Source: Mycolicibacterium sp. HK-90
GTDB lineage: Bacteria; Actinomycetota; Actinomycetes; Mycobacteriales; Mycobacteriaceae
DNA: 64,000 bases
Direction of reading: 5' to 3'
NCBI RefSeq assembly: GCF_030486405.1
Contig: NZ_CP129613.1
Location: 1,426,001 to 1,490,000 of the forward strand
The position numbers and the translations under genes are program-made. Below, one piece after another: positions 7,513 to 24,898 of this stretch; the stretch's first letter is position 1, and each line of letters begins with the position of its first letter. The notes under the pieces are model-generated. The model searched no databases. It had not been told where the DNA came from and worked only from the letters and a program-made list of their open reading frames with translations.

Positions 7513-9297
7513 ATGTTCGCCTTTCTCCCAGGACTTCCCGGCCAGGATGATCTCAAGGCGTTGGCCCGGCGCGTTGACACCGCCCGGCACAACGGTGTGC
7601 CCAGCGGGTGTGTGCTGGAGCTGGACCTGACGTCGGTCCCGCCGGAGACCACCGGCTTTGACCCGCTGGCGATGATCGCCGGTGGAGGCCGGCCGATGGT
7701 GTTGCGGCAGGCCGTGACCGCGATCCACCGCGCCGCCGAGGACGACCGCGTGGCGGGGCTGATCGCGCGGGTGCAGCTGCCCGCCGCCGCTCCCGGCCCG
7801 GTGCAGGAATTGCGCGACGCCATCGCGGCTTTCGGCGCCGTCAAACCCACAGTGGCCTGGGCCGAAACCTATCCCGGGACACTGTCCTACTACTTGGCGT
7901 CGGCCTTCCGCGAGGTGTGGATGCAGCCGTCGGGCTCGGTCGGTCTGGTCGGGTTCGCCACCAACGCGATGTTCCTGCGCGACGCTCTCGACAAGGCAGG
8001 CATCGAGGCCCAGTTCGTCGCACGCGGTGAATACAAGTCCGCGGCAAACGTTTTCACCGAAGGCGGCTACACCGAAGCGCAGCGCGAAGCCGACGGCCGA
8101 ATGATCGAGAGCCTGCAATCACAGGTGTGGCAGGCCATCGCCGAATCCCGGAACCTGACCCCGGAGGTGATCGACACCCTGGCCGACCGCGCGCCGGTGC
8201 TGCGTGAGGAGGCGGTCACCAGCGGGCTGATCGACCGCATCGGGTTCCGGGACGAGGCCTACTCACGCATCGGGGAGCTGTCCGGTGGCCCCACCGAGGC
8301 CGGCGCCGACGCCGACAATCATCCGGATGCTCTCCCGCGGCTTTATCTTTCGCGTTATGCGCGGACGGCACCGAAGGTGCCGACACCGTCCATCCCGGGC
8401 CGCAAGGCCAAGCCCGCCATCGCGGTGGTGACCCTGCACGGCTCCATCGTCAGTGGCCGCGGTGGGCCGCAGGTACTGCCACTGGGGAACTCCAGTGCCG
8501 GCGGTGACACCATCGCGGCGGCGCTGCGGGAGGCTGCCGCCGATGACGAGGTGTCGGCCATCGTGCTGCGCGTGGACAGCCCCGGCGGTTCGGTCACCGG
8601 ATCGGAAACCATTTGGCGCGAGGTGGTTCGGGCCCGGGAGCGGGGGAAGCCGGTGGTCGCCTCGATGGGTGCGGTCGCGGCGTCCGGCGGCTACTACGTG
8701 TCGATGGCAGCCGACGAGATCGTCGCCAACCCAGGCACCATCACCGGGTCGATCGGTATCGTCACCGGCAAGCTGGTGTCCCGCGAACTCAAGGACAAAC
8801 TCGGTGTCGGCTCGGATTCCTTGCGTACCAACGCCAATGCCGACGCCTGGTCCTCGAATGCACCGTTCACCGACGAGCAGCACGCCCATGTCGAGGCCGA
8901 GGCGGACCTGCTCTACACCGATTTCATCGAGCGGGTGGCGCACGGGCGCCGGCTCACGGTCGATCAGGTCGACGAGGTGGCCCGCGGGCGAGTGTGGACC
9001 GGCGTCGATGCCAGGGACCGTGGACTCGTCGACGAGCTCGGTGGGCTGCGTACCGCCGTGACCCGGGCCAAGGTGCTGGCCGGCCTGGATCCGGACACCA
9101 AGGTCCGGGTGTTCAGCTATCCCGGTTCGTCGTGGCTGGAGATGTTGCGGCCCAAGCCTTCCTCGCAGCCCGCGGCCGCCTCGCTGCCGCAGGCGGTCGG
9201 CAGCCTGCTCGGCCGGTCGGTGCTCGGCATCCTCGACCAGGCCGAACGCACCGTGACCGGGGCGAATGCCCTCTGGCTGGGGGAGCACCGGTTCTGA
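7513..9297 (+). CDS. sppA: Signal peptide peptidase SppA, 67K type (protease IV)
   Basis: SppA degrades leader peptides left after signal-peptide cleavage. This 594-residue protein has the tandem two-domain architecture of the 67K class. The catalytic lysine is K175 in the N-terminal domain (segment RGEYKSAAN), and the nucleophilic serine is S391 in the C-terminal domain (segment [10 protein letters not shown]), so the Ser-Lys dyad is complete. No strong N-terminal transmembrane segment is visible, which differs from the E. coli enzyme and fits the mycobacterial form that begins MFAFLP. It stands alone after the rplO terminator. Confidence 0.92.
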
Positions 9298-17671: not shown

Positions 17672-17696
17672 TGAACCGGATCGCCCCCAACGTCGT
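17672..17696 (+). promoter_or_regulatory. Putative SigL-dependent autoregulatory promoter
   Basis: TGAACC (17672-17677) is followed after 16 bases by CGT (17694-17696). That is the form I know for SigL-controlled promoters in M. tuberculosis (TGAACC with a CGT-type -10), where sigL transcribes itself. It would start transcription close to 17703 and give a leader of about 15 bases before the sigL GTG. The element is seen directly; SigL control is inferred from its position. Confidence 0.62.
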
Positions 17697-17717
17697 ATCA
17701 CAGACGGAGGTAGGGAA

Positions 17718-18245
17718 GTGGATGATCCGGAGGCCGCCATGATGCGGGTGCTCTACGACGAGCATGCTGCTGCGCTGTGGCGCTATGCCCTACGGCTCAC
17801 GGGTGACCGAGCCCGGGCCGAGGACGTGGTGCAGGAGACGTTGTTGCGTGCCTGGCGTCACCCTGATGTCACCGCCGACACGGACCGATCGGCCAGGGCT
17901 TGGCTGTTCACCGTCGCGCGGAACATGATCATTGATGAGCGCCGGAGCGCCCGCTTTCGCAACGAGACCGGGGTGCCCGATCCCGAACAGGTGGCAGACC
18001 ATTCCGGCGCCGCTGCCACACCCGACCAGGTGGACACCGCGTTGGACAGAATCCTGCTGAGTACGGCATTGAGCCAGCTCTCCGACGAGCACCGGGCGGT
18101 GGTCCGCCGGGCCTACTACCAGGGCTGGACCACCGGGCAGATCGCCGACGATCTACAGATACCCGAGGGCACCGTGAAATCGCGGTTGCACTACGCGGTA
18201 CGCGCGCTACGACTCAACTTGCAAGAAATGGGGGTGACACGATGA
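17718..18245 (+). CDS. sigL: ECF RNA polymerase sigma factor SigL
   Basis: This 175-residue extracytoplasmic-function sigma factor has region 2 at about residues 12-80 (LYDEHAAALWRYALRLTGD, AEDVVQETLLRAWRH) and region 4 at about 118-168 (LSDEHRAVVRRAYYQGWTTGQIADDL, IPEGTVKSRLHYAVRALR). Gene order directly after map and before a zinc anti-sigma factor gene identifies it as SigL, which in M. tuberculosis controls polyketide and cell-envelope genes. GTG start is preceded by GGAGGTAGGGA. The stop overlaps the rslA ATG by four bases. Confidence 0.93.
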   Translation: MDDPEAAMMRVLYDEHAAALWRYALRLTGDRARAEDVVQETLLRAWRHPDVTADTDRSARAWLFTVARNMIIDERRSARFRNETGVPDPEQVADHSGAAATPDQVDTALDRILLSTALSQLSDEHRAVVRRAYYQGWTTGQIADDLQIPEGTVKSRLHYAVRALRLNLQEMGVTR

Positions 18246-18976
18246 CACAGTTCGGTGTGCCCCACATTCCTGATCCGGTGGAATCCGACCGGTACCGGAC
18301 CTGGGATGCGGCCTACGTGCTGGGATCGCTCGACCCTGGGGAGCGACGCGAGTATGAGGCCCATCTGGAGGGTTGCGCGCAGTGCCGGTCCGCGATGGCC
18401 GAGTTGAGCGGCATGCCCGCGTTGCTGGCCATGCTGGAGCTCGACGACGTGCTCGCCCTCGAGTCCGAACAGCCCGATCCGCCGCTTCGGCCCGAGGTAC
18501 TGCAGTCCGTCCTGGCCAAGGTCAGCTGGCGGCGACGCCGTTCGCGGTGGGTGACCACGGCGGCCGTGGGTCTGGCCGCCGCGCTGCTCGCCGTGGGTGT
18601 GGTGGTCGGCATCCGTCCCGAGGTGTTCGGTCTGCAGAGCGGCACCGAACAGCAGAGCGCGGAGATGATGGCGATGTCCAAGATGTCCGACACCCCGATC
18701 AACGCGAGCATCGCGATGACTAGTCATGCCTGGGGTACCCGCATCGACATGGCCTGCAGCTACGGGAACTGGGGCAAGCAGGACGCCCCGCCGCAGAATC
18801 TGGGCATGGTGGTGATCGGCCGCGACGGTCAGCGTGAGGAGATCGCGACATGGCTGGGGTTGTCCGGCGCGACCGCGCTACCCAGCGGCAACACCCAGAC
18901 TCCGATGGCGGATATCGCTGCGGTTCAACTGGTTACCTCCCCCGATGGCAAGGTGCTGCTGGAAAAGCAGCTCTGA
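18242..18976 (+). CDS. rslA: Anti-sigma-L factor RslA
   Basis: RslA is a membrane-bound anti-sigma factor that holds SigL inactive until oxidative or other stress releases it. The 244-residue protein has a cytosolic zinc-associated anti-sigma domain with the HxxxCxxC motif HLEGCAQC near residue 41, one transmembrane helix (VTTAAVGLAAALLAVGVVVG, around residues 103-122), and an outer domain of about 120 residues. Translational coupling to sigL by a four-base overlap favours stoichiometric synthesis. The convergent methyltransferase gene ends 11 bases beyond its stop. Confidence 0.93.
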   Translation: MTQFGVPHIPDPVESDRYRTWDAAYVLGSLDPGERREYEAHLEGCAQCRSAMAELSGMPALLAMLELDDVLALESEQPDPPLRPEVLQSVLAKVSWRRRRSRWVTTAAVGLAAALLAVGVVVGIRPEVFGLQSGTEQQSAEMMAMSKMSDTPINASIAMTSHAWGTRIDMACSYGNWGKQDAPPQNLGMVVIGRDGQREEIATWLGLSGATALPSGNTQTPMADIAAVQLVTSPDGKVLLEKQL

Positions 18977-18987
18977 GCGCCGCCGGT

Positions 18988-19656
18988 TCAGCCGACGGTT
19001 TCTTTGTGGGCGCTGAGCAGGAAGCCGGGCATCATGATGTGCCCGGCTCCGTCGCGTTCCACCCCGGGCAGTGACGCCGGGCCGCCGGCGGCCGGGGTGT
19101 CGTTGCCGTACAGCGTGGCCGGGCGGACGTCATCGACCGTCCAGCAGGTGGCGACGGTCTCGCGCAGCTCGTCGGCGGTGAACCCAGTGGGGCCGGGGAC
19201 GGCGCCGCCGAACGGCCGCGTGGCGAAGGCCAGGATGAACAGGCCGGCTCCCGGCGCCGCGGCGCGATGGATCGCCCGCACATAGGCCTGGCGCCCGTCG
19301 ATCGGCAGGGCGTGCAGCAACCCGCTGTCCATCACAGTGCCGAAGCGGCCGTCGTAACCGCCGAAGTCGGTCATGTCGGCCTGCGCGAAACTGGCTGTGG
19401 TCAAACCACGCTCGGCCGCGGTGGCCGCCGCCGCGGCCACCGCCGTCGCGCTGGCATCCAGGCCGACCACGGTGTATCCGCGCTCGGCCAGCGCCAGCGA
19501 GAGAGCGGCATGACCGCACCCGGAGTCGAGCACCTCGCCGCGCACCTTGCCCTGCTCGACGAGTCGCGCAAGCTCGGGCTGCGGGGCACCGATGCTCCAC
19601 GGTGGCGGTGTGTCCTGCCGGTAGGCGTCGTCCCAATCCATCTGCGGCTGTGTCAC
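18988..19656 (-). CDS. Class I SAM-dependent methyltransferase
   Basis: This 222-residue methyltransferase has a Rossmann-type SAM fold with motif I VLDSGCGHAALSLALAERG and the acidic residue of motif II in VVGLDASATAV. The opening MDWDDAYRQDTPPPWSIG-type segment is frequent in TehB-like or thiol-methyltransferase relatives. GTG was chosen because GGAGG lies a short distance upstream and homology to relatives starts there; the longer open frame continues into non-conserved sequence. It is a monocistronic gene, divergent from the ThDP enzyme operon and convergent with rslA. The substrate is not evident. Confidence 0.8.
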   Translation of the reverse strand: MTQPQMDWDDAYRQDTPPPWSIGAPQPELARLVEQGKVRGEVLDSGCGHAALSLALAERGYTVVGLDASATAVAAAAATAAERGLTTASFAQADMTDFGGYDGRFGTVMDSGLLHALPIDGRQAYVRAIHRAAAPGAGLFILAFATRPFGGAVPGPTGFTADELRETVATCWTVDDVRPATLYGNDTPAAGGPASLPGVERDGAGHIMMPGFLLSAHKETVG

Positions 19657-19831
19657 CTGATGCCTCCGATCGTGGTTGAGCCGGCCTCTCGGCCTTTCCC
19701 CTCCACTATGCCCAGTTCTACCGGGACTGGCTGGCCGTCTCCTGGGGTGTAGCAGGGAGTTTCCAGAAATCCGGGCTCGGGGTGAACCCGGGTATCCCAC
19801 CGGTCGTGTCAATTACAGAGCACGGAAGTAG

Positions 19832-19846
19832 GTGACACATGGTCAC
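19832..19846. promoter_or_regulatory. Inverted repeat over the start codon of the ThDP enzyme gene
   Basis: GTGAC (19832-19836) and GTCAC (19842-19846) flank a five-base centre containing the ATG at 19839. The flanking bases also give GTGTCA (19806-19811) facing TGACAC (19833-19838). Such short dyads at a start codon could be the operator for the MarR-type regulator at the end of the same locus, or a translational hairpin. The arms are short, so chance is possible. Confidence 0.28.
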
Positions 19847-21590
19847 AGGTCGCAGGGTGGTGGACCACATCGTCGGCTATCTGGCCGCGAACGGGATCTC
19901 GCACATCTTCGGTGTGGACGGCGCCAACATCGAGGACCTCTACGACGCGGCGTTCTTCCGCGACGACATCACCGCGATCCTGGCCAAGCATGAATTCTCC
20001 GCCGCCACAATGGCTGACGGCTACAGCCGCGGCGGCGCGGGCATCGGCGTCGTCGCCGCGACCTCGGGTGGCGGGTGCCTGAACACCGTGCCCGGGCTGG
20101 GGGAGTCACTGGCCAGCCGGGTTCCGGTGCTGGCACTGATCGGGCAGGCCCCGACGGCGCTCGACGGGCGCGGCGCCTTCCAGGACACCAGCGGGCACAA
20201 CGGCACCCTGGACGCGCACGCGCTGTTCTCGGCGGTCTCGGTGTACTGCCGCAGGGTGACGACGCCCGGCGACATCCTCACCGCGCTGCCCGAGGCGCTG
20301 GCCGCCGCGCGCACCGGTGGGCCCGCGGTGTTACTGCTGCCCAAGGATATTCAGCAGGCCGATCTCGGGGAACCGGGCGCCTGCAACGGCAACGGTGCCG
20401 TCAGGGCCGAGTCGGCGGCGCGGCATGGCGATCCGCGCGGCCTGGTGCAGGCGCTACGTCGCGCCGACGGGCCGATCACGATCATCGCCGGCGAACAGGT
20501 CGCCCGCGACGATGCCCGAGCCGAACTGGAACGACTGCGCGCCACCCTGCGGGCGCGGGTGGTCACGGTGCCCGACGCCAAGGACGTGGCAGGCACCCCG
20601 GGACTCGGCTCGTCCTCCTCGCTGGGCGTGTCCGGCGTGATGGGCCACCCCGGAGTGCCCGTCGCCACGGCGCAGAGTGCGATGTGCCTGCTGGTCGGCA
20701 CCCGCATGACGGTGACGGCCCGGGCGGGGCTCGACGAGGTGTTGCGGTCTGTGCCGACCTACTCGATCGGTGCTCAGGTGCCCTATCCGGCGTCCACCCA
20801 CGTCCACTCCGACGACCTGCGCGAATCGCTGGCGCAGCTGGCCCGGGCGCTGTCCGGGCCCGGCCGGCCCACTCAGGTACGTGTACCGGACCTGTTACCG
20901 CGCAACGAGTTACGCCCACCGCCTCACGGCGGCCCGGGGATCCGCTACCGCGACGCGATGACCGTGCTCGACGCGGCACTGCCGGACCGAACCGACATCG
21001 TCGTCGACGCGGGCAACATCGGGGCCTCGGCGATCCACTATCTGCCGGCCCGGCGCGACGGCCGCTTCCTGGTGGCGCTCGGCATGGGCGGGATGGGCTA
21101 CAGCTTCGGAGCGGCCATCGGACTGACCTTCCACCGGGCTGCCGCCGGCGCACCCGATCAACCCAAACGCACCGTGGTGATCGCCGGTGACGGCTCATTC
21201 TTCATGCACGGCATGGAGATTCACACCGCGATGCAGTACCGGCTGCCGATCACCTTCGTGTTGTTCGACAATCACGCGCACGCCATGTGTGTCACCCGCG
21301 AGCAGCTGTTCTACCACGATCGCTACTCCTACAACCGGTTCGGGCCGAGCCGGCTGGGCGCCGGGCTCGCCGCGATGTTCCCCGGCCTGCCCGCCGTCGA
21401 CGTCTTCGAGATCGGCCAACTGTCCGGAGCGCTGGCCACGGCCCTGGACGCCGACGGACCGTCGGTGGTCAGCGTCGAATGCTCGGCCGACGAAATCCCG
21501 CCATTTGCCGCGTTTCTCACCGCTGAGACCGCCGACAACCATTCCACAGCAACAGAGGAGAACAGGTCCCATGTCATTGCCCGCGCTTGA
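19839..21590 (+). CDS. Thiamine diphosphate-dependent enzyme, acetolactate synthase/decarboxylase-like
   Basis: This 583-residue protein has the three-domain layout of ThDP decarboxylases and ligases. The catalytic glutamate that activates the cofactor is E52 in AKHEFSAATMADGYSRG. The C-terminal ThDP/Mg-binding motif is GDGSFFMHGMEIHTAMQY followed by FVLFDNHAH. The central domain is present but no FAD-binding signature is obvious, so it need not be a classical acetolactate synthase. It heads a tight four-gene operon with SRPBCC, KAS III-like and PLP aminotransferase genes. A 2-oxoacid decarboxylase or acyloin-forming carboligase is the best general prediction; the substrate is unknown. Confidence 0.82.
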   Translation: MVTGRRVVDHIVGYLAANGISHIFGVDGANIEDLYDAAFFRDDITAILAKHEFSAATMADGYSRGGAGIGVVAATSGGGCLNTVPGLGESLASRVPVLALIGQAPTALDGRGAFQDTSGHNGTLDAHALFSAVSVYCRRVTTPGDILTALPEALAAARTGGPAVLLLPKDIQQADLGEPGACNGNGAVRAESAARHGDPRGLVQALRRADGPITIIAGEQVARDDARAELERLRATLRARVVTVPDAKDVAGTPGLGSSSSLGVSGVMGHPGVPVATAQSAMCLLVGTRMTVTARAGLDEVLRSVPTYSIGAQVPYPASTHVHSDDLRESLAQLARALSGPGRPTQVRVPDLLPRNELRPPPHGGPGIRYRDAMTVLDAALPDRTDIVVDAGNIGASAIHYLPARRDGRFLVALGMGGMGYSFGAAIGLTFHRAAAGAPDQPKRTVVIAGDGSFFMHGMEIHTAMQYRLPITFVLFDNHAHAMCVTREQLFYHDRYSYNRFGPSRLGAGLAAMFPGLPAVDVFEIGQLSGALATALDADGPSVVSVECSADEIPPFAAFLTAETADNHSTATEENRSHVIARA

Positions 21591-22251
21591 GGACATCACG
21601 GCCCACCGAGGCTCCCGAACCCCGCTCGACGGGCTCATCCGGATCGAGACCTCGCCCAAGGAGAAGGCCACCCCGATCATCATGGACATGATGCGGTCGG
21701 TCTACCCGCACGACCAGGTGTTCGGCCAGTACTGCACGGTCAACGACTACATCGAGTGCCCGCCCGATGAGTTGTTCGACTATCTGTCCGACACCCGCTG
21801 CCTGGAGGAGTGGACCTACAGCCTGCGCGGGTTCACGCAGACCGAAGAGCCCGGACTGTGGCTGGCCCACGACCGTCTCGGCGCCGGCCCGACGAGCCCC
21901 GGCAGCGCGATCTACACCCGCACCGACGCCCACCGCGATGCGCTCACCGTGGACTACCACTGCGCCTGGGACCAGGGCAAGCACCTGTGGATGATCTACC
22001 TGATGCGCATCGTCGACGCGCAGGTGGTCTTCGACAAGCCGGGATCGGTTGTGCTGTGGACGAATTGCCACCACCCGTTCTACGACGAGAATCCGTACCC
22101 CGAGACCGCACCCACGGGTCGACCGGTCTGGGTGGGGGACTTCTGGGACATGTTCGGCCCCGGTCACCTGCTGGAACTGCAGAACCTCAAGGCCATCGCC
22201 GAATACCGGCATCGCAACGGCCTGCCGGTCACCCCGGACTGGATGAAGTGA
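21571..22251 (+). CDS. SRPBCC-domain protein of unknown function
   Basis: This 226-residue protein contains a START/SRPBCC-like ligand-binding domain starting around residue 50 (DYIECPPDELFDYLSDTRCLEEWT), the usual helix-grip opening of polyketide cyclase/ligand carrier proteins. The first 45 residues are an extension and the C-terminus ends GLPVTPDWMK. There is a His-rich segment NCHHPFYDEN. The ATG lies within the last 20 bases of the ThDP gene, preceded by AGAGGAG, so translation is coupled. In this context it may bind or cyclise a reactive ketone intermediate; that is inference. Confidence 0.7.
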   Translation: MSLPALEDITAHRGSRTPLDGLIRIETSPKEKATPIIMDMMRSVYPHDQVFGQYCTVNDYIECPPDELFDYLSDTRCLEEWTYSLRGFTQTEEPGLWLAHDRLGAGPTSPGSAIYTRTDAHRDALTVDYHCAWDQGKHLWMIYLMRIVDAQVVFDKPGSVVLWTNCHHPFYDENPYPETAPTGRPVWVGDFWDMFGPGHLLELQNLKAIAEYRHRNGLPVTPDWMK

Positions 22252-22259
22252 GGCCGGCC

Positions 22260-23294
22260 ATGTCCAACCAGTCCACCGACAAGACCCCCGTCAGCCTCAT
22301 CGACGTGTCCACCTACCTGCCGGGTGAGCCGATCAGCGCCGACTATTACGCCCAGTTCGCCGAAACCGACGAGCTGCGGGAGAACCGGATGTTCCGCGCG
22401 CCGCGATACCGCCATCATGTGGCTGCCGACGAGACGGCGATCGACATGGTGGAGCGGGCCGCGGCCGGGTTGATCGACCGGCATGGCTCCGACGCCGTCT
22501 CGGGTGCCGACGTGCTGATCACCCACACCCAGCTACCCGACATGCCGTTCTACGGAGGCGGCGGCGGGATGGCGCATCGGCTCGGGATGAAACCGACCTG
22601 GGTGATCGATCTGCACAACGGCGGCTGCGCGGCGTTCGTGCTGGCCCTCAAACTGGCCCGGAACCTGCTGTCGTCCGGTGAAGGCCGCAGCGCGCTGATC
22701 GCGATCGCCCAGAACGCGGCCGGGACGGTGTTCGATCAGCAGACGATCCGGCCCAAGGCCCAGGCTTCGGTCCCCGGAGACGGCGCCGCGGTCGGGCTGG
22801 TGACGCTGTCGGACACCTCGCCGATCCTGGATGTGGAATGCCGCACCTACGGCGAGTACGCGGGCGACATGACGCTGTCCATCGATCCGCCGCGGCAATG
22901 GTGGCAGGCCGGGCCCGGAGAGGCCTGCATCGGGTTCACCGAAAGCAAGATCACCAAGGTGCTGGCCCGGGGAAACCGCCAGGTCCCAGAGGTGTCCTAT
23001 GCCGTCTGTGATCGAATCGGGGTGCAGCCCAAGGACATCGACCTGTTGGTGACCAACCAGCCCAACCGGGCGTTCTTGCGGAACTGGCGCGACGCACTGG
23101 AATTACCGCCCGAACGTCATGTCGATACGTTCGACGAGTGTGGAAACCTTTTCGCCGCAGGCATTCCCGTGAACCTCGATCGGGCTGTCACCGGCGGCCG
23201 GGTGAAGGCCGGTGACACCGTGCTGATGGCCGCCTTCGCCCACGCCGGTGACTTCGCCGGGGCCGCCGCCGTCCGCTGGGGCGGGCGCAGCTGA
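22260..23294 (+). CDS. KAS III-like (FabH-family) enzyme with altered catalytic triad
   Basis: The 344-residue protein has a thiolase fold of the ketoacyl synthase III family. Aligning by eye to FabH, the nucleophilic cysteine is C123 (HNGGCAAF), the asparagine is kept as N296 (ECGNLFAAG), but the histidine of the HQAN motif is replaced by N266 in LLVTNQPN. The C-terminal FabH pattern (RVKAGDTVLMAAFAHAGDFAGAAAVRW) is intact, so the fold is complete. Loss of histidine suggests it does not carry out normal decarboxylative condensation and may instead transfer an acyl group. The start ATG is eight bases after the SRPBCC gene; its stop overlaps the aminotransferase by one base. Confidence 0.8.
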   Translation: MSNQSTDKTPVSLIDVSTYLPGEPISADYYAQFAETDELRENRMFRAPRYRHHVAADETAIDMVERAAAGLIDRHGSDAVSGADVLITHTQLPDMPFYGGGGGMAHRLGMKPTWVIDLHNGGCAAFVLALKLARNLLSSGEGRSALIAIAQNAAGTVFDQQTIRPKAQASVPGDGAAVGLVTLSDTSPILDVECRTYGEYAGDMTLSIDPPRQWWQAGPGEACIGFTESKITKVLARGNRQVPEVSYAVCDRIGVQPKDIDLLVTNQPNRAFLRNWRDALELPPERHVDTFDECGNLFAAGIPVNLDRAVTGGRVKAGDTVLMAAFAHAGDFAGAAAVRWGGRS

Positions 23295-24325
23295 TGACCG
23301 CGCCCCGTTCGGCACTGCTCGAAGCGGTGGGTGCCCTGCCGCAGGCCATCAATCCGTTGGCGTTGTCGCTCAACGAATGCCCCTTTCCGCCGCTGCCCGC
23401 GGTGCGCTCGGCGCTGCGCGCCTGCGACGAGGCCGCCAACCGGTATCCGGAGTTCCTGCCGCAGCGGTTGCGCTCGCTCATCGCCGACCACGACGGCATG
23501 GCCGAGGAGCAGGTGATCGTCGGGGCCGGCGCGACCGGGGTCATCATGCAGGTGCTGCACGCGGTGACCAGTCCCGGCGACACCATGGTGATGGCGACGC
23601 CCACGTTCGACGGTTACCCGATCTTCGCGCAGATGGCACGGTTGCAGACGGTCACTGTCCCGCTCGACGCGTACGGCCACCACGATCTGGAGGCGATGGC
23701 CGAGGCCGCGGCGCGGGCCCGGGTCGTGGTGATCTGCCGCCCGCACAACCCGACGGGCACCATCGAACCCGTCGCCGAGATCGAGCGGTTCCTGACGCGG
23801 CTGCCCGAGGACACCGTCGTGTTGTTGGACGAGGCCTATGTGGAGTTCCTGGTCGCCGAGCACCGCATCGACGGGCCGGGCCTGGTCGCCCGGTTCGGCA
23901 ATGTCGTGGTGGTGCGCACGTTTTCGAAGGCCTACGGCCTGGCCGGCCTGCGGATCGGCTACGGCTTCTGCGCCCCCGATCTCGGCCGTGAGCTGTGGAG
24001 GATGCAGGTGCCGTTCGGTATCGGGCTCAGTGCGCAGGTGGCGGTCGCCGCCTCGTATGCCGCGGAAAATCAACTGCGCCAACGTATCCGGATGATCGCC
24101 GCGGAACGGCACTACCTGCAGATGCGGTTGCGGGCGTTGGGTGTCTACAGCACCGACGCGCACGCCAACTTCCTGTTCCTGCCCGGGAGGTCCACGCCGT
24201 GGCCGGACGTGTTCGACGGCACCGGGCTGCAACTGCGCCATTACGTCGACGGCGGGGTGCGGATCACCGTCGGATCGCGGCAGTCCACCCGCGCGGTGCT
24301 GGGCGCGGTGGGCGCCGCCTGCTGA
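23294..24325 (+). CDS. PLP-dependent aminotransferase, HisC/aromatic type
   Basis: This 343-residue class I/II aminotransferase resembles histidinol-phosphate and aromatic aminotransferases. The N-terminal LALSLNECPFPPLP corresponds to the substrate-loop start of HisC relatives. The PLP-binding residues are seen in RPHNPTG, LLDEAYVEF and TFSKAYGLAGLRIGYG, where K212 forms the Schiff base. The final arginine segment (GGVRITVGSR) binds the substrate carboxylate. In this operon it probably makes or consumes a 2-oxoacid or amino ketone linked to the ThDP enzyme. It is not in a histidine operon, so a HisC role is unlikely. Confidence 0.82.
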   Translation: MTAPRSALLEAVGALPQAINPLALSLNECPFPPLPAVRSALRACDEAANRYPEFLPQRLRSLIADHDGMAEEQVIVGAGATGVIMQVLHAVTSPGDTMVMATPTFDGYPIFAQMARLQTVTVPLDAYGHHDLEAMAEAAARARVVVICRPHNPTGTIEPVAEIERFLTRLPEDTVVLLDEAYVEFLVAEHRIDGPGLVARFGNVVVVRTFSKAYGLAGLRIGYGFCAPDLGRELWRMQVPFGIGLSAQVAVAASYAAENQLRQRIRMIAAERHYLQMRLRALGVYSTDAHANFLFLPGRSTPWPDVFDGTGLQLRHYVDGGVRITVGSRQSTRAVLGAVGAAC

Positions 24326-24394
24326 GGAGCGGGATGCCGGTGCGCAATGCGCGCAGTTGCGTCGCGTCTGCGCGGCGATGCGGTAAGAAGAGGC

Positions 24395-24898
24395 GTGACT
24401 TCGCCACCGGACAAGCGGGACCCCATCGCGCAGGCCCGCGCGAATTGGGAGGCCGCCGGCTGGGGCGACGTGGCCGGCGGGATGGTCGCGGTGACGTCGG
24501 TGATGCGAGCGCACCAGATTCTGCTCGCCCGGGTGGAGACTGCGCTGCGACCCTACGACCTGAGCTTCTCCCGCTTCGAGCTGCTGCGCCTGCTGGCGTT
24601 CAGCCGGGCCGGTGCGCTGCCGATCACGAAGGCCTCCGATCGGCTGCAGGTCCACGTCACCAGCGTCACCCACGCGATCCGGCGGCTGGAAGCCAACGGC
24701 CTGGTGGAACGCGTCCCGCACCCCACCGATGGCCGCACCACGCTGGTGCGCATCACCGATCTCGGGCGCTCGACGGTCGAGGACGCCACGGTGACCCTCA
24801 ACGAGCAGGTGTTCGCCGACGTCGGGATGTCCGACGAGCAGTCGCAGGCGCTGGTGTCCTCGATCGAGACGCTGCGCCGACACTCGGGGGACTTCTGA
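24395..24898 (+). CDS. MarR-family transcriptional regulator
   Basis: The 167-residue protein carries a winged-helix MarR domain: helix-turn-helix about residues 75-100 (LPITKASDRLQVHVTSVTHAIRRLEANG) and the wing VERVPHPTDGRTTLVRITDLGR. The GTG start was chosen because AAGAAGAGG lies right before it; a more distal in-frame ATG 48 bases upstream is possible. It follows the aminotransferase by 69 bases in the same direction and is the obvious candidate to control the operon in response to a small ligand. Confidence 0.82.
   Translation: MTSPPDKRDPIAQARANWEAAGWGDVAGGMVAVTSVMRAHQILLARVETALRPYDLSFSRFELLRLLAFSRAGALPITKASDRLQVHVTSVTHAIRRLEANGLVERVPHPTDGRTTLVRITDLGRSTVEDATVTLNEQVFADVGMSDEQSQALVSSIETLRRHSGDF

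Follow-up and report, generated by a model that had tools for sequence, protein, structure and literature searches.

A SigL-linked mycobacterial operon homologous to Streptomyces carbazole assembly enzymes and its predicted lipid-tailed carbazole product

Assembly of the carbazole nucleus of carquinostatin in Streptomyces involves the enzymes CqsB7, CqsB3, CqsB1 and CqsB2, with CqsB2 acting as the carbazole synthase (PMC7466098). A chlocarbazomycin cluster encodes a HisC-type aminotransferase, a thiamine diphosphate (ThDP) enzyme, a KASIII protein, an acyl carrier protein (ACP) and an SRPBCC protein (PMC10100901). Here, we analyzed a row of four genes, encoding a ThDP enzyme, an SRPBCC protein, a KASIII-like protein and an aminotransferase, in Mycolicibacterium sp. 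HK-90. The row lies within a stretch of 64,000 nucleotides (the window; bases 1426001–1490000 of a 6.49 Mb single-contig genome), in whose coordinates all positions are given. We consider it probable, though well short of assured, that this SigL-linked operon, homologous to the Streptomyces carbazole enzymes, directs the synthesis of a lipid-tailed 2-methyl-1-alkyl-carbazole hydroquinone or quinone from tryptophan, pyruvate and a fatty acyl thioester. Such a product would probably serve as an antioxidant.

The four genes of the operon are as follows:
19839–21590, plus strand: ThDP enzyme, read from the open reading frame and the bases, of the Pfam/NCBIfam ThDP family, with catalytic Glu52 and a GANIE motif.
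21571–22251, plus strand: SRPBCC protein, a predicted ring-forming enzyme (CqsB2/NzsI-like), overlapping the ThDP gene by 20 bases.
22260–23294, plus strand: KASIII-like protein, a predicted decarboxylative acyl transferase (CqsB1/NzsJ-like), 8 bases behind the SRPBCC gene, with Cys123, Asn266 (in place of His) and Asn296.
23294–24325, plus strand: pyridoxal phosphate (PLP)-dependent aminotransferase of the HisC/aromatic type, a predicted tryptophan aminotransferase (CqsB7-like), overlapping the KAS gene by 1 base, with PLP Lys212.

The open reading frames and the sequence confirm to the base the tight spacing reported in a preliminary description of this DNA, which had treated the genes as a unit, and the four-gene neighbourhood is conserved elsewhere. 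All four genes are present, in the order ThDP–SRPBCC–KAS–aminotransferase, at 73 of 80 named genome loci (the best 80 of 493 matches). In the seven exceptions the ThDP gene is interrupted (L029), the SRPBCC gene stands alone (L079), the row is partial or rearranged (L100 and L102), or no aminotransferase gene was found (L078, L081 and L097, the first two of which end at contig ends). After removal of exact repeats (132 to 129 loci), spacings fell within −60 to 200 bases for 126/129 ThDP/SRPBCC, 123/129 SRPBCC/KAS and 110/114 KAS/aminotransferase pairs, counted in loci where both genes were found. Since the order is kept and the spacings are narrow, the gene row is not due to chance. Among the matches listed, the named SRPBCC proteins most similar to that of the window come from M. 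houstonense (97% identity) and M. boenickei (96%), which places the strain close to these two Mycolicibacterium species. In the M. houstonense locus (L029:6695–11185) an aminotransferase-like stretch breaks the ThDP gene and the aminotransferase gene is shortened, reflecting a rearrangement or an assembly fault.

Pfam and NCBIfam confirmed the ThDP, KASIII, aminotransferase I/II and MarR families (the last for the gene downstream of the operon, see below), and the SRPBCC protein had no match in either collection. CqsB2 was its sole PDB match in a search to E 1 (E 6.9e-46). An AlphaFold model of the protein (pLDDT 85) likewise had CqsB2 as its top fold match (E 1.1e-18), followed by abscisic-acid receptors (E 1e-6). 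The residues Tyr144, Tyr172, His206 and Glu209 of CqsB2, to which roles in proton handling are ascribed (PMC7466098), are identical in 143/143 window-type rows; these and the following residue counts exclude L148, proteins with stops and proteins under the length cut-offs. Glu105 of CqsB2 is replaced by Asp in the window protein, as it is in two cyanobacterial proteins of the CqsB2 clade. By homology, the SRPBCC protein is thus predicted to be a ring-closing enzyme.

Among solved structures in the PDB, BbmA and CsmA match the ThDP enzyme best, and the GANIE motif and catalytic Glu52 are common to the window enzyme and the ThDP enzymes of carbazole clusters. The catalytic Glu is kept in 138/139 rows, the exception being the interrupted gene of L029. 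An acetolactate synthase-like housekeeping role was rejected, because the 25 NCBIfam models among the matches listed (of 51) scored far below their cut-offs. In the KASIII-like protein the FabH-type triad, whose position was checked on solved FabH-type chains, reads Cys123, Asn266 and Asn296, and the Cys and the Asn are kept in 140/140 window-type rows. The PLP-binding Lys is present in 117/117 aminotransferase rows.

On these homologies, the aminotransferase would convert tryptophan to indole-3-pyruvate, and the ThDP enzyme would join indole-3-pyruvate with pyruvate. The KASIII-like enzyme would take up an acyl group on Cys123 and condense it in a decarboxylative step; the unstable diketone would then pass to the SRPBCC enzyme, which would close and aromatize ring A. 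The chemistry guessed in the preliminary description (an aminotransferase supplying a 2-oxoacid, ThDP-dependent coupling, acylation by the KAS protein and ketone handling by the SRPBCC protein) comes close to published carbazole assembly (PMC7466098). A cyclized product is more likely than the open acylated acyloin proposed there, because the SRPBCC protein is, by homology, ring-closing. The same description had called the gene combination unfamiliar in mycobacteria. No report of the operon or of carbazole biosynthesis in mycobacteria was found in the open-access literature (subscription journals were mostly outside the scope of the search), but the combination itself is known as carbazole assembly (PMC7466098).

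To place the window protein among its relatives, a maximum-likelihood tree was built from hand-chosen SRPBCC rows, with genera named by the best-matching protein. The tree separated 39 window-type rows (Mycobacterium, Nocardia, Rhodococcus, Gordonia, Williamsia, Tsukamurella, Streptomyces and further family members) from 15 CqsB2-type rows (Streptomyces, Embleya, Kitasatospora, Sorangium, cyanobacteria, Legionella and others) with 100/100 support. The window operon is therefore a separate sister clade of the Cqs/Nzs type and not part of that clade: placing it inside was rejected by the tree split together with the His-to-Asn exchange in the KAS protein. Several CqsB2-clade proteins (P0140, P0167, P0171, P0176, P0178 and P0197) come from Blastocatellia, cyanobacteria, Legionella/Tatlockia and a vent metagenome entry labelled gamma. 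A 348-residue SRPBCC relative (P0076) bears the mark of a ThDP C-terminal domain, a possible fusion or frame artefact; together with long open frames it hints at an SRPBCC–ThDP gene fusion, which we do not claim. Lone SRPBCC genes adjoining ABC/FtsX-type transporter genes were seen at L020:9036–9701 and L079:8113–8778, the former with a SigL-type box upstream at 8836.

Both arrangements occur within one genus. In the genus of G831, taken as Streptomyces from the CqsB2 identity of L170, 23 of 246 genomes had an SRPBCC match, and the 20 loci fetched plus L137 gave 21 for comparison. Three (L170, L172 and L176) are carbazole-type, with the order KAS–SRPBCC–ThDP and an aminotransferase gene further on. 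The other 18 have the window order ThDP–SRPBCC–KAS, ten of them with an aminotransferase match directly behind. L170 encodes a 97.8% identical CqsB2, homologues of the window ThDP, KAS and aminotransferase proteins, and squalene/phytoene-synthase-type, NUDIX and P450 genes. In five of the 21 loci (e.g., L163:6854–7933) an AraC-type-looking gene precedes the window-type row, so the switch may differ there.

A second mycobacterial version of the row, unlinked to sigL, bears on the acyl donor. The genomes of L017, L019 and L097 carry it as a second copy, that of L022 as the only one. In all four (L017:7622–18189, L019, L022 and L097) ThDP–SRPBCC–KAS genes are followed by a fatty acyl-AMP ligase gene, and no aminotransferase or sigL gene was found in the locus. 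In L017 a small ACP gene (PF00550) separates the KAS and ligase genes, and reading of the frames places one there in L019 and L022 too; in L017, L019 and L097 a gene for an MmpL transporter, two for methyltransferases and one for a P450 come after the ligase (families confirmed on L097). This version suggests that the acyl donor is a fatty acyl-ACP and the product a lipid.

Lipocarbazoles carry a long acyl-derived tail. They are 3-oxygenated, antioxidative carbazoles of Tsukamurella pseudospumae Acta 1857 (J. Nat. Prod. 2009, via PMC7466098). The machinery for the mono-oxygenated carbazole type is described as unidentified (PMC7466098). Of 16 Tsukamurella genomes (genus assigned through a 100% match of G462 to a protein of Tsukamurella sp. 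8F), 15 each gave a single CqsB2-like match, the window-type SRPBCC gene, and the three Tsukamurella rows of the SRPBCC tree fall in the window clade.

Several observations weigh against a carbazole product. Whole-chain superposition of the SRPBCC model on CqsB2 was poor (TM 0.63, root-mean-square deviation 16.9), and in the tree the window protein lies outside the CqsB2 clade. The window KAS and ThDP proteins are only 26–28% and 33–35% identical, respectively, to those of the three carbazole-type loci. The His of the KAS triad is Asn in 140/140 window-type rows and is kept in 3/3 carbazole-type rows, so the chemistry may differ from that of the carbazole-type enzymes. The aminotransferase tree does not separate tryptophan from phenylalanine or tyrosine as substrate. 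Within the window operon there is no gene for an ACP or for acyl supply; its acyl source would have to come from elsewhere. Lipocarbazoles belong to the mono-oxygenated type, whose hydride step is left unexplained (PMC7466098), and the operon holds no reductase for such a step. Because no lipocarbazole gene cluster was found in the open-access literature, the Tsukamurella link is by genus only, and the fetched Tsukamurella loci show no aminotransferase or sigL gene beside the core.

The operon is preceded by secY, adk, map, sigL and rslA and followed by a MarR gene. The names sigL and rslA are taken from the synteny secY–adk–map–sigL–rslA and from published work on these genes. The flanking features are as follows:
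17672–17700, plus strand: SigL-type box before sigL, TGAACC-N16-CGTATCA, with the same architecture as the box at 19783.
17718–18245, plus strand: sigL, sigma factor of the extracytoplasmic function (ECF) type, with tblastn orthologues at the same place in sigL-linked loci.
18242–18976, plus strand: rslA, anti-sigma factor, with tblastn orthologues in sigL-linked loci.
19783–19811, plus strand: SigL-type box before the operon, TGAACC-N16-CGTGTCA, with 31 bases between CGT and the first ATG.
24347–24898 as listed, likely start 24395, plus strand: MarR regulator of the Rv0737 type (Pfam/NCBIfam MarR family), a neighbour outside the pathway.

The −35 hexamer TGAACC, which we take to be a SigL signal, is common to the regions upstream of the operon (19783) and of sigL (17672). 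The −10 consensus of sigma-L is T-G-N-(C/A)-A-G with C-G preferred in front (PMC6372665), and CG-TGTCAA at 19805–19812 fits it except at the last position. The strict box was counted in loci with a ThDP gene and at least 300 upstream bases. Among mycobacterial loci it was present in 61/81 sigL-linked vs. 3/13 unlinked ones (Fisher p 4.5e-4), and in other genera in 9/10 vs. 1/20 (p 7e-6); boxes of relatives are not independent, and since the p-values ignore kinship the evidence is weaker than they suggest. Overall, 70/91 sigL-linked and 4/33 unlinked loci had the box, with a spacer of 16 in 69/70. The sole unlinked locus of another genus with a box (L144) has sigL–rslA nearby on the other strand. 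As a control, 389 of 27800 random 280-base segments of the same loci contained the box, compared with 78/127 operon upstream regions (repeats and other genera included). With a looser pattern, a near-box at about −34 or −57 was found in 17 of 18 strict-box-negative sigL-linked mycobacterial loci, the exception being L029; these were 18 of 20 such loci, L100 and L102 being left out for their rearranged order. The operon is thus likely under SigL control. In M. tuberculosis, RslA is described as redox-sensitive (PMC2877774).

The MarR gene was present in 68 of 70 Mycobacterium genomes lacking the SRPBCC gene (70 of 94 such genomes were tested), and its orthologues Rv0737 and Ms_1492 bind the sigL–rslA promoter in vitro and are reported to raise expression (PMC13002591). 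It is therefore a core Rv0737-type regulator. A dedicated MarR switch, as the preliminary description had assigned to the operon, was rejected on this retention. The span 19839–24898 offered there as a complete unit holds the genes as listed, but the likely switch, SigL–RslA and its box, lies just outside it. Most MarR homologues align from about residue 10–24 of the listed frame, so GTG at 24395 is the likelier start. A class I methyltransferase gene on the minus strand (18988–19812) lies between rslA and the operon, a position in which only some relatives have it; the start listed for it falls on the SigL-type box, and the true start is therefore probably further in.

Other explanations of the operon differ in product or in control. 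The same acyloin chemistry might yield an open-chain or lactone product (a furanolide, or an indole acyloin ester like xenocyloin or sattazolin), and the role of the SRPBCC protein would then be limited to guiding or stabilizing an intermediate. We judge this unlikely, although it has precedents: furanolides are built by the ThDP enzyme CybE and CybF, the latter annotated as a 3-oxoacyl-ACP synthase (PMC12395478, PMC8777810), and sattazolin acyloins are made by NzsH homologues (PMC9822442). The His-to-Asn exchange in the KAS protein could also mean O- instead of C-acylation. However, next to the KAS gene the row retains a gene for a CqsB2-type protein in which all four residues for proton handling are identical, and furanolide assembly, as far as described in these sources, needs no such protein.

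The same machinery might instead act on phenylpyruvate or 4-hydroxyphenylpyruvate and give a naphthalene- or benzene-type ring and no carbazole. The closest solved relative of the aminotransferase is 4r2n, a putative phenylalanine aminotransferase, and its tree leaves the substrate undecided. By tblastn, the window aminotransferase scores higher against L170 (42% identity, 254 bits) and L172 (43%, 213 bits) than against its best paralogue in the same genome (37%, 186 bits), but lower against L176 (35%, 149 bits). In CqsB2 chemistry the nucleophile is the electron-rich indole ring (PMC7466098), and we hold a phenylpyruvate-type substrate to be decidedly improbable. Finally, the MarR gene that follows the aminotransferase gene on the same strand would fit a self-contained metabolite operon under a dedicated MarR protein that senses a ligand; the retention of that gene in SRPBCC-free genomes, the action of its orthologues on sigL–rslA and the SigL-type box before the operon leave this explanation scarcely credible.

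The SRPBCC gene was matched in 203 of 297 Mycobacterium genomes; among these, G230 has a weak 27% match, the small genomes G075, G089 and G115 have broken pieces, and some others have part of the gene. In a family-wide sample it was present in 152/401 genomes and 16/31 genera, and phylum-wide in 14/396 genomes, one of them outside the family. In G075 (L148) and G115 (L181) sigL and the ThDP, SRPBCC, KAS and aminotransferase genes persist at the same place as fragments, most with stops, and the adjoining secY, adk and map are free of stops; in G089 (L182) the operon and sigL are broken at the same place and less decayed. Of seven fetched loci that are free of the operon, L149, L150, L154 and L155 keep sigL–rslA, and in L151, L152 and L153 neither sigL nor rslA was found by tblastn in the interval from map to the MarR gene. 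In M. tuberculosis rv0737 lies immediately downstream of sigL–rslA (PMC13002591), so the operon is not at that place there. The simplest reading is that an old operon at the sigL locus was lost or decayed several times.

A broader proposal, which we advance only tentatively and consider doubtful as a whole, is that a membrane carbazole (hydro)quinone, unseen until now, is widespread among mycobacteria and their kin (Nocardia, Rhodococcus, Gordonia, Williamsia and Tsukamurella). Being lipid-soluble, it would act as an antioxidant or redox carrier, and it would be the ancestral output of the SigL–RslA redox switch. The tuberculosis line would have kept the switch without the adjoining operon, the leprosy line would have let both decay, and the same clade would be the lipocarbazole machinery. 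Should the reading as a SigL-controlled carbazole operon hold, (i) about two thirds of the sampled Mycobacterium species would carry the key gene of a small aromatic-alkaloid pathway for which no description in mycobacteria was found in the literature searched; (ii) the window clade would also account for the lipocarbazoles, and the origin of mono-oxygenated lipid carbazoles would become testable; (iii) the SigL–RslA system would gain a concrete chemical output; and (iv) a new KASIII variant (Cys-Asn-Asn) would be available for study.

The operon resembles four described systems to different degrees. Compared by description, the furanolide pathways (cyb and mac) share a ThDP-dependent condensation of the acyloin type followed by a KASIII-like enzyme, but a CoA ligase and an ammonia lyase feed them and the accounts consulted describe no CqsB2-type protein. 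For the lipocarbazoles of T. pseudospumae, the only CqsB2-like match in those 15 genomes of the producing genus is the window-type SRPBCC gene, whereas the fetched loci lack an adjacent aminotransferase or sigL gene, and T. pseudospumae was not identified among the genomes compared. As in the M. tuberculosis SigL regulon (the sigL–rslA, pks10 and Rv1139c promoters), the box at 19783 fits the −10 consensus with C-G in front; in contrast, the accounts consulted name no comparable small-molecule operon as a SigL target, and at the M. tuberculosis sigL locus rv0737 takes the place directly behind sigL–rslA (PMC13002591). With the cqs and nzs clusters (Streptomyces carquinostatin and neocarazostatin), the window row shares one homologue each of the aminotransferase, the ThDP enzyme, the KASIII-like protein and the CqsB2-type ring former, including the proton-handling residues of the last. 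It differs in its order, ThDP–SRPBCC–KAS–aminotransferase instead of KAS–SRPBCC–ThDP with a more distant aminotransferase gene, in lacking a prenyltransferase, an ACP and a KASIII supply gene, and in its sister-clade position, its KAS His-to-Asn exchange and its linkage to SigL.

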